DNA of 45,400 nucleotides, taken from NCBI GenBank assembly GCA_014379585.1, contig JACMLN010000064.1, positions 1 through 45,400 on the forward strand. The letters are read 5' to 3'. Below are positions 35,250 through 38,193 of the stretch, in pieces (position 1 is the first letter of the stretch; every line of letters starts with the position of its first letter). This DNA is from Gloeobacterales cyanobacterium ES-bin-313 (GTDB taxonomy: Bacteria > Cyanobacteriota > Cyanobacteriia > Gloeobacterales > Gloeobacteraceae). Position numbers and translations under genes: made by a program. The notes beneath the pieces were generated by a model. It was given only the letters and a program-made list of their open reading frames with translations, made no database searches and was not told the DNA's origin.

Positions 35250-35584
35250 AATGCGTGAATCTTTCTAGCAACGATATCTATGTTCCTATCACTTTGCAAC
35301 TGGACTAACGACTGCCAGTTGAGTTAAAAAAATAAAGGCATTACTTAGTCTGCAGACTAAACGTGGAAATTAGAAGCATGTCCGATTGCAGGGTGGCTCC
35401 CGAAACCTTTGGTTCGCCCGATGCAATACAGAAACAATCCAGTATTTCTCAATAAAATCATTACTGTTGCACAAGCGACTAAGAATACAACAGTCGAAAT
35501 CTTTGGTTCAATACATACTTGGGGAGTAACCATTTAACTTTGGGAGGCGTATGTTTGAGAGATATTTTGAAACAGGAGTCCGGT
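35250..35584. other. Intergenic region with palindromes and a short repeat
   Basis: This region of about 335 bp separates the polysaccharide locus from the GTPase gene. CAACTGG (35297-35303) pairs with CCAGTTG (35315-35321) but is followed by an A-tract, not T's. A perfect 16-bp palindrome lies at 35345-35360. The block CGAAA-CTTTGGTTC appears near 35401-35415 and again near 35496-35510. It probably carries the promoter of the GTPase/WD40 pair. Confidence 0.5.
35345..35360. promoter_or_regulatory. Perfect 16-bp palindrome, candidate operator
   Basis: TTAGTCTGCAGACTAA is fully self-complementary, with no spacer. It lies about 225 bp upstream of the GTPase start. Its length and symmetry fit a dimeric regulator site; the regulator is unknown. 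Confidence 0.35.
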
Positions 35585-36490
35585 GTGGGAAACATCGAAA
35601 AGACGTTAAGCCTGTTGAGCCTTGGGCCAAGGGGAGTCGGCAAGACGGTCTTTCTGGCTGCAAGCTTTAGAGAACTAGAGGAGATCTCTTCTCAGGCAAA
35701 GGCGCTCAAGGGATGGCTGGGATTCAATTTTGACGACGAGCGCTCGCGAGGCAATATAAGTTCACTGATCGCGTCAATTGAGCGTACAGGCGCCTATCCA
35801 CCACCGACCCCAGCCGTAAGCGATTTTGCACTACGATTGCATCTGGGCTCACCACCCCTCGAACTCGGAACATTGTGTCGCTTTCGCTGGCAGGATGTAC
35901 CGGGCGAATTATGTGCAGAGTGGAACCCGCAGTTTAGAAGCATGGTCATGGCAGCTCACGGTTGCTGTTTGTTTGTAGAGGCGCCTGCCCTTGCAGATAC
36001 GCAAAAACTTGAGGCTTACTCCAACATTGTCGATCAGGCAATGGCAATTGCGATGCTGGCAGCAAATAACCGCTTGGTCATGCCCTTTGTAGTGGTGTTG
36101 ACTAAGTGCGACTTACTTGAGGGAAATGCTGGGGAGGAGTCGCGTCTGCACGAACAGTTGAACGACCTCATAGGTTCAATTGTTTCGCTTGTACCTGATT
36201 GCCGGATCGTCTGCTGCCAGGCACCGATTGCATTCTTGGGAGATCAATATCGATTGCGGCCAAGTGGCTGTTCAGAAGCACTTCTATGGCTCATGCAGCA
36301 GACCTGGCAAGCCCATGTCGGAACCTGGCCACGACAATGGATGGGTGTCCTACGTGCCTTAGGCCAACGAAGCAATCAGGAAGCTGGCTCCCTTGCGCCG
36401 GGCTTGATTGAGCGGTTGCTGGGTGGTCAGAAACTCCCTCACAGTCCTGAGGGAGTGGTTCGATCTGGTCTAGACAGGAACGAACCATGA
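35585..36490 (+). CDS. P-loop GTPase, partner of the WD40 membrane protein
   Basis: The product (301 residues) is a single GTPase domain. G1/Walker A is GPRGVGKT at residues 14-21, a switch/G3 motif is WQDVPGEL near 103-108, and G4 TKCD near 172-175 specifies guanine. It differs from Ras/Era in the DVPGE form, which is closer to YcjX and conflict-system 'double GTPase' families (my impression only). No transmembrane segment. The GTG at 35585 follows AGGAG by 6 nt and is the best start; the frame also opens from TTG at 35519. The stop overlaps the WD40 start by ATGA, so the pair is translationally coupled. Function unknown. Confidence 0.85.
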   Translation: MGNIEKTLSLLSLGPRGVGKTVFLAASFRELEEISSQAKALKGWLGFNFDDERSRGNISSLIASIERTGAYPPPTPAVSDFALRLHLGSPPLELGTLCRFRWQDVPGELCAEWNPQFRSMVMAAHGCCLFVEAPALADTQKLEAYSNIVDQAMAIAMLAANNRLVMPFVVVLTKCDLLEGNAGEESRLHEQLNDLIGSIVSLVPDCRIVCCQAPIAFLGDQYRLRPSGCSEALLWLMQQTWQAHVGTWPRQWMGVLRALGQRSNQEAGSLAPGLIERLLGGQKLPHSPEGVVRSGLDRNEP

Positions 36491-38193
36491 CAGAAGGAGA
36501 GCGGCTCATTGCAGCAGGGGCACCTGATTCCCCTGATCTTGATCCACTGGTGGTTGCCGGGCAGTTGGTCTACACAAGCTTTATTGACAAGGGATTTCAG
36601 CTACTTACAAGTGAAGGATTTGAGCCAGACCTTGGGCAGGTCTTTCTCGAACGCATTTTCATACCTTTGTGGAATGTCTACGAGCCTCCCCCATTGGATT
36701 TTAAGGCAGTTTTTGTACTTACAATCTCAGAAGATTCAGTGCTTTTCGGCTGGATCTACAATGATGGGCCAGATGATCTCGGTCGTGCCCACGTACCCTA
36801 CTGCGTTTGTTATCTCGCGTACGGCCCGCTTACCCCTTTGCAATTCGAACAACTCTTGACTTGTTTGGAACGTGGACCGACTGCACCCCTCGTAAACCGC
36901 TGGAGTGCGCCGGCGATGCCGCTACCGGTGGTCTTGCACGAGCCAGCATTCCGTTTAGGCGTGCCCCTCAATGAAGCGAGACGTTCTGAGGCTAGAGCTA
37001 CCTATCTAACCTCTGGGGTTCTGTGGAGCCCTGGGCGATCAAACACGTACCAAGCAGAATCAGTCATCTCCACACCTCCAAATACCAAGCGGCGTCGGGT
37101 GATGCCCATCCTTGCGAGTGTCATGGTTCTCCTCGTATTCGTTTCTGGATTGAGTTGGGTCAGCCAAGCATTCCATCGCGATCCTCCAAAGTCCGAACAG
37201 CCTTCTGTACGTTATTCAGTCTTATCCGGTGAGCAAGACTGCTTCGTCGGTAACCAACCCGCCTCGAATCCCAGTCAGATTGCCTGCACTGCTTTGGAGT
37301 GGCGCAATGCAGTCGGGCAGGTTGTTTCGGACAACGCAGGTTCAGTCTGGGCAATAGCAGTGGATCCGCAGGGCAAACTGCTCGCGAGCACAGGAAACGA
37401 TGGACGGATTTATCTACGTAGGCTTTCCGATGGCAGTCTGCTTTCGACGCTGGCTACACCTGGACGCAAACGGGTGCAAGCACTCAGTTTCCGGCCCGAC
37501 GACCCGGAAGAACTCGTAGCAGGGGGCGTAGGTTCCATACGCATCTGGCGACTGGATGGGCGCACCTCCCGCCAGTTCGCTGGAATAACGCCCACGGCCT
37601 GGAAGCTGGTCTGGGGGAAGCATTCTATGCTCTATAGCACTGGTAGCGATGGCGCAGTGCACCTCTGGGATATTGACAAAGGCCGTCAGATTGCTCGCAC
37701 AAGCGCTGGGAAGCAGCCACTGTTTGCTGGAGCCTTAAGTCTCGACGGACAATCTTTCATCGCTGGTAGCAGCGATGGTAGGATTCGTTTCTGGGATGCG
37801 AGACTCCAGCGCATCACACTTCAATTTAAAGCCCACACTGGCGGGGTTCGTACCCTTGCTGTTGATCCAAAGGGACGTTGGCTGGTAAGCGGCAGTTGGG
37901 ATCGCACCGTCAAAGTCTGGCGAATGACGGACGGACACCTGGTTCGGGTGCTTGGTGGTCATACTGACCGAGTTATTTGTGCAGCCATTTCCCCAGACGG
38001 CGCAGTTTTAGCCACAGCCGGGCGAGACCGCAATGTCAAACTTTGGGATCTGCAATCGGGAAAACTCCTGAACACGCTCACAGGCCACCGCGACTGGGTA
38101 CTTGATCTGACTTTTTCGCCTAATGGTCAAACCCTGATCAGCTCTAGCAAAGACCAAACCATCCATCTCTGGAGAAAAAAACACGATAAATAG
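36487..38193 (+). CDS. Bitopic membrane protein with seven-bladed WD40 propeller
   Basis: The 568-residue product has three parts. An N-terminal domain (about 1-160) begins with GQLVYTSFIDKGFQLLTSEG and includes FGWIYNDGPDDLGRAHVPY. A basic linker (KRRR) precedes one transmembrane helix (about 204-226, IL..VMVLLVFVSGLSW). Then exactly seven WD40 blades (about 278-566) run from GSVWAIAVDPQGK to DQTIHLWRK, enough for one closed propeller. By the positive-inside rule the N-terminal domain faces the cytoplasm, where it could meet the GTPase encoded by the overlapping upstream gene, and the propeller faces the periplasm. The N-terminal domain looks like a cyanobacterial WD40-associated domain and perhaps a GTPase-associated (GAP1-N-like) domain; this is unverified. 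Confidence 0.88.
   Translation: MTEGERLIAAGAPDSPDLDPLVVAGQLVYTSFIDKGFQLLTSEGFEPDLGQVFLERIFIPLWNVYEPPPLDFKAVFVLTISEDSVLFGWIYNDGPDDLGRAHVPYCVCYLAYGPLTPLQFEQLLTCLERGPTAPLVNRWSAPAMPLPVVLHEPAFRLGVPLNEARRSEARATYLTSGVLWSPGRSNTYQAESVISTPPNTKRRRVMPILASVMVLLVFVSGLSWVSQAFHRDPPKSEQPSVRYSVLSGEQDCFVGNQPASNPSQIACTALEWRNAVGQVVSDNAGSVWAIAVDPQGKLLASTGNDGRIYLRRLSDGSLLSTLATPGRKRVQALSFRPDDPEELVAGGVGSIRIWRLDGRTSRQFAGITPTAWKLVWGKHSMLYSTGSDGAVHLWDIDKGRQIARTSAGKQPLFAGALSLDGQSFIAGSSDGRIRFWDARLQRITLQFKAHTGGVRTLAVDPKGRWLVSGSWDRTVKVWRMTDGHLVRVLGGHTDRVICAAISPDGAVLATAGRDRNVKLWDLQSGKLLNTLTGHRDWVLDLTFSPNGQTLISSSKDQTIHLWRKKHDK

Follow-up and report, generated by a model that had tools for sequence, protein, structure and literature searches.

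DO-GTPases with GAP1 partners were defined by Kaur et al. (2020), and these systems have been reported as nearly absent from cyanobacteria (PMC7159879). In the GAP1-N2 systems the GTPase gene lies directly upstream of the partner gene, and the partners carry a C-terminal transmembrane (TM) segment together with variable domains (PMC7159879). YcjX has been described along with the DO-GTPase family (PMC11237479), and in MglA/MglB of Myxococcus and the conservons of Streptomyces a bacterial Ras-like GTPase has a Roadblock-fold regulator encoded nearby (PMC4316618). A further point of comparison is the Rag/Gtr GTPases with Ragulator, FLCN-FNIP and GATOR1, where a small GTPase at a membrane has partners of the longin and roadblock folds. 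Roadblock is a GTPase-regulator fold and a sister fold of longin. The known signalling routes of bacterial one-pass receptors involve kinases, cyclases and chemotaxis proteins.

The window, the whole stretch of 45,400 nucleotides that was analysed, contains a small GTPase gene followed by the gene of a partner protein, the features of which are collected in Table 1. A sequence-only reading had described the GTPase by its GPRGVGKT, DVPGE and TKCD motifs and its coupling through ATGA to a second open reading frame, and all of these are present as described. The longest open reading frame of the GTPase gene opens at TTG 35519; however, GTG 35585 appears to be the best start, being preceded by AGGAG, yielding MGNIEKTLSLLSLGPRGVGKT and agreeing with the starts of the relatives.

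Table 1. Features of the GTPase gene and the partner gene in the window (aa, residues of the partner protein; E, strand; H, helix).
Feature	Position	Strand	Basis
Probable ribosome-binding site (AGGAG) for the GTPase gene	35574..35578	+	sequence
DO-GTPase2-family small GTPase, 301 aa	35585..36490	+	Pfam PF19993, 29.1 bits against a cut-off of 27
G1/P-loop of the GTPase, GPRGVGKT	35624..35647	+	sequence; core invariant in 21 relatives
G3 of the GTPase, DVPGE	35894..35908	+	D, P, G and E invariant in 21 relatives
G4 of the GTPase, TKCD	36101..36112	+	C and D invariant, T almost invariant (21 relatives)
ATGA stop/start overlap of GTPase and partner genes	36487..36490	+	sequence
Partner protein, 568 aa: N-domain, one TM helix, WD40 propeller	36487..38193	+	sequence, Pfam, hydropathy
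N-domain, aa 22-152 (about), longin-like	36550..36942	+	conserved family, AF2 topology, structural neighbours
N-domain elements in the AF2 model	E23-32 E36-41 H47-61 E73-81 E84-92 E104-112 H117-129		AF2 model
KRRR basic cluster ahead of the helix, aa 201-204	37087..37098	+	sequence
Single transmembrane helix, aa 205-223	37099..37155	+	mean hydropathy 2.35
Seven-blade WD40 propeller, predicted extracytoplasmic	37327..38190	+	Pfam WD40 2.3e-49; charges; PstS-like replacement

PF19993 (DO-GTPase2) was matched by 21/21 of the related GTPases at E values up to 1, several of them under the cut-off, and DxPGE, with the G3 glutamate that is conserved in DO-GTPases, was invariant in the 21. The locus holds a single GTPase gene and its sequence no N-terminal zinc ribbon; since GTPase pairs and such ribbons are frequent rather than universal in DO-GTPase2 proteins (38% and 60%, respectively; Kaur et al., 2020; PMC7159879), their absence is compatible with membership. 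The AF2 model of the GTPase (pLDDT 79) is Ras-like, and the structure search that had been suggested for both proteins returned Ras-like GTPases at Z of about 15 for this one, with Rab28 (Z 15.1), Rab32 (15.0) and LokiRagO (15.0) tied as its best solved neighbours and MglA also among the matches. YcjX, which differs in being stress-linked and in occurring in Proteobacteria, and for which we know of no N-domain partner, matched at Z 14.3 over 235 residues. Gtr1_RagA was matched weakly by 4/21 GTPases (best 3e-4); neither these matches nor the tied LokiRagO score establishes a Rag affiliation. Most of the related GTPases have a C-terminal membrane helix, which the window GTPase lacks, and in five (L067, L070, L086, L093 and L098) TPR repeats follow this helix or a hydrophobic segment.

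The view of the partner protein as bitopic was supported, basic residues standing ahead of its single helix. Lys and Arg residues within the 15 positions before and after the helix number 4 and 2 in the window protein, 76 and 42 when summed over 27 partner proteins, and 68 and 22 when summed over the GTPases that carry a helix. In two relatives (L055:3628-5460 and L081:792-2684, with no close GTPase detected in the genome of either), the N-domain is followed by a helix and a PstS-like PBP_like_2 domain, a kind of domain that in known proteins lies outside the cytoplasm. Because the charges follow the positive-inside pattern and a PstS-like domain takes the place of the propeller in these relatives, the N-domain is probably cytosolic and the propeller outside the cytoplasmic membrane, the orientation that had first been proposed. 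The claim that the propeller is complete also stood: seven WD-like blades can be counted by eye at residues 281-568, five of the repeats passing Pfam singly.

Whether the two genes belong together was addressed in 292 cyanobacterial genomes, where a close GTPase was defined by a score of at least 148 bits, well separated from the next matches at less than 60 bits. Such a GTPase is encoded in nine genomes, and all nine also encode the N-domain, usually in the adjacent gene, so that the survey across cyanobacteria which had been proposed for these genes came out in favor of the pairing; the N-domain profile itself matches 12/292. The hypergeometric probability of this overlap (5.9e-15) overstates the evidence, since the genomes, which span several families, are not independent samples. 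Three of the 12 N-domain genomes are without a close GTPase: in G095 and G097 the N-domain gene is immediately preceded by what is left of a GTPase gene, interrupted by stops, and G005, a genome with a PstS-like fusion, has no such remnant. As G005, G292 (also with a PstS-like fusion) and G293 all lack a close GTPase, the N-domain can exist without it.

A peptide pattern of the N-domain was also scanned against the genomes of 84,980 species, in which the family proved to be restricted to cyanobacteria: all 25 loci found are titled as such. In 18/25 the N-domain gene is immediately preceded by a GTPase gene on the same strand. Among the others, a gene for a SBP lies between the two in L093, the genes are convergent in L098, and L099 has a broken GTPase copy; no GTPase was present within the stretch around the N-domain gene in L081, L089, L096 and L101, the genomes of L096 and L101 encoding GTPases elsewhere and those of L081 and L089 having none that was detected. 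Distances between GTPases and between N-domains were correlated over 22 pairs (r 0.91, Mantel P 1e-4, a value that includes shared species history), and for the two paralogous pairs of Desmonostoc vinosum the nearest relative is the same by either gene (L079-L083 and L091-L088). The window's own genome contains a second GTPase gene followed by an N-domain gene without helix or propeller (L007:8644-10106), one orphan GTPase and one orphan gene for an N-domain plus helix. The GTPase and N-domain genes thus form one co-inherited module, and the functional tie between the bitopic protein and the GTPase that the sequence-only reading had put forward is supported alike by co-occurrence, adjacency and co-inheritance. 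Spread of the pair by plasmids was considered and rejected, as neither the N-domain nor the close GTPase had a match on plasmids.

What follows the N-domain varies. Helix plus propeller is the commonest arrangement; a Roadblock/LC7 region without a helix is found in L058, L063, L065, L084, L093, L096, L099 and L100, the fusion lying beside a GTPase in L084, L093 and L100. In two of these, L065 and L093, the Roadblock match exceeded the cut-off, and a profile made from the region retrieves Roadblock proteins of known structure at 2.9e-7. Pfam detects no Robl_LC7 domain in the window partner protein. In L101:6983-9073 the N-domain is followed by a caspase-type peptidase (PF00656, 48 bits) and a C-terminal helix, and the genome concerned encodes five close GTPases; in L098 and L009 there is a helix and little else, and in L007 nothing. 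Because the appended domain varies and the N-domain stays, the N-domain, not the propeller, is the constant partner of the GTPase among the relatives.

This organization invites comparison with the DO-GTPase/GAP1 systems (PMC7159879), which share with the present pair the Pfam DO-GTPase2 match, the G3 glutamate, a partner gene directly downstream, membrane helices in the partner and variable C-terminal domains. The locus could on that account be a divergent conflict system of the GAP1 type (Kaur et al., 2020), in which the N-domain would be a highly diverged GAP1-N, the invader would be sensed, or the effect exerted, by the propeller or caspase, and activation would end in cell suicide. We consider this unlikely, even though the GTPase belongs to the DO-GTPase2 family, the gene order and partner layout are those of GAP1-N2 (PMC7159879) and a caspase fusion exists for one of the N-domains. 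GAP1-N2 (PF20013) was not found above the cut-off in the 292 cyanobacterial genomes, and no GAP1 match was obtained in 27 N-domains or in the full window partner protein, by which GAP1-N2 was rejected, at the level of sequence, as the identity of the N-domain, although the two may be related too distantly for profiles to show it. GAP1-M and GAP1-C were likewise not seen, the Pfam families listed for the full window protein being of the WD40 type only, with none in the region before the TM helix, and the FNIII or GASH components that have been described differ from the propeller and Roadblock partners. The flanking genes of the pair that were scanned by Pfam include no FNIII or GASH protein, tubulin or HSP70. 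There was no match in PADLOC and no plasmid homologue, and an effector domain was seen only once, most variants ending in a propeller or Roadblock domain.

The N-domain has no family in Pfam, NCBIfam or PADLOC. An earlier impression that it resembles GTPase-associated domains found no confirmation by sequence, no GAP1-N being matched; what the predicted fold offers instead is a likeness to longins. The AF2 model built from 27 relatives (pLDDT about 87-92, residues 21-130) places the elements in the order b-b-a-b-b-b-a, which is that of longins. VIA-align 2 ranked TagF first (Z 7.4), followed by an Asgard longin (8yqg, Z 7.0), with FLCN, C9orf72, NPRL2, Lst4 and TRAPP at Z 5.5-6.2; longin or roadblock folds account for 20 of the best 26 rows. 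Since values below 8 are common with this program and may reflect only a common arrangement, we call the domain longin-like rather than a longin. Foldseek gave no match below E 0.001 for the N-domain model, the best being TagF at 0.004 and the FNIP2/FLCN complex at 0.008. At the sequence level, no match to PDB chains was found at E up to 10, and none to longins. TagF, a soluble regulator of another system (type VI secretion), has no sequence similarity to the N-domain, though it is the top structural neighbour; TagF and the NTPase domain of TssM might form a pair comparable to the N-domain and its GTPase. Three independent observations, namely the fold neighbours, the genetic tie to a GTPase and the fusion to Roadblock, agree on a longin-like reading, and the best structural neighbours of the modelled domain are mostly GTPase-regulating longins.

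No description of the pair was found in the literature on DO-GTPases or bacterial longins that was searched, most subscription journals lying outside the search. Of the earlier view that the pair is undescribed, the part concerning the GTPase itself does not hold, as it passes the cut-off of a known family; the architecture, with its partner domain and the pairing, is described neither in that literature nor in Pfam, NCBIfam or PADLOC.

We favour as the probable explanation that the longin-like domain sets the nucleotide state of the GTPase and that the outer domain modulates this. The 301-residue DO-GTPase2-family protein and the 568-residue protein would form a membrane-attached GTPase switch, in which the longin-like domain, in the cytosol and joined through one helix to the propeller outside the cytoplasmic membrane, would dock on the GTPase and act as an exchange factor, a GAP or a GTP-dependent platform. 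An external ligand or protein bound by the propeller would alter this setting, and the longin-like platform would carry exchangeable sensor or output modules. The direct contact, the nucleotide effect, the signal and the output are what we infer here, and the explanation is weakened by longin Z scores of at most 7.0, by the lack of a longin sequence match, by the occurrence of the N-domain in some genomes that have no close GTPase and by the window GTPase having no helix of its own.

The propeller might instead be a constitutive periplasmic anchor and the GTPase an organizer of proteins in the envelope or thylakoids that responds to no external signal, much as MglA/MglB act in polarity. WD40 propellers are usually protein-binding scaffolds, the fusions of GTPase, TM helix and TPR repeats resemble assembly platforms, MglA is among the fold matches of the GTPase and Roadblock occurs in partners; however, a phosphate-binding-type domain in the place of the propeller suggests that some members of the family sense ligands, and we regard a purely scaffolding role as improbable. 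From MglA/MglB and the conservons the present system differs in that its regulator is longin-like, mostly membrane-bound and provided with an external domain, Roadblock being found only in some relatives.

A switch of the kind we favour resembles the Rag/Gtr system in pairing a membrane-located small GTPase with proteins of the longin and roadblock folds, and the GTPase model matches LokiRagO as well as it does Rab28 and Rab32. It differs in being bacterial, in having one GTPase rather than a heterodimer, in a regulator that spans the membrane and in an N-domain without sequence relation to longins. It is conceivable but doubtful that the pair corresponds, in bacteria, to the nutrient-sensing platform of Rag-Ragulator/FLCN; a Rag-like GTPase at the membrane would then be controlled by longin-like and Roadblock domains that share descent with those of eukaryotes and Asgard archaea, and the external sensors (propeller or phosphate-binding domain) would be exchangeable. 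In the literature searched, longins are discussed for eukaryotes and Asgard archaea and no bacterial longin was found; a longin-like domain locked genetically to a GTPase, and fused to Roadblock in relatives, would bear on the age of the GTPase-platform arrangement. A receptor speaking to a Ras-like GTPase would also add a route beyond kinases, cyclases and chemotaxis proteins, and the pair occurs in organisms that are open to culture and editing.

The pair in the window adjoins an exopolysaccharide locus (Wzy, flippase and glycosyltransferases), to which the sequence-only reading had given possible relevance. This did not find support, and the context was rejected as a functional clue: related pairs have different genes around them, none of the exopolysaccharide locus being found at L090, one of the closest pairs as judged by the GTPase, and the polysaccharide neighbour therefore looks incidental. 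In five loci (L079:1707-5475, L083:1757-5569 and similarly in L078, L080 and L091) the pair has a C39-peptidase ABC exporter, or a fragment of one, immediately upstream, and four of these loci have an HlyD gene as well.

Among the GTPases, IcmF-related_N was weakly matched by 2/21 (4e-4). An orphan GTPase paralogue (L008:7448-8227), which adjoins a geranylgeranyl-reductase-like gene, is without the PGE of G3 and is possibly a non-hydrolysing form. Distant cyanobacterial DO-GTPases (L034, L035, L036, L039, L044 and L045) adjoin small uncharacterised partner genes, with an HSP70-type gene near that of L035; the products of these small genes were unrelated to the N-domain in a profile comparison, a weak one as the alignments held two and three sequences. 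Such distant DO-GTPases with small partners may qualify the published near-absence of such systems from cyanobacteria.
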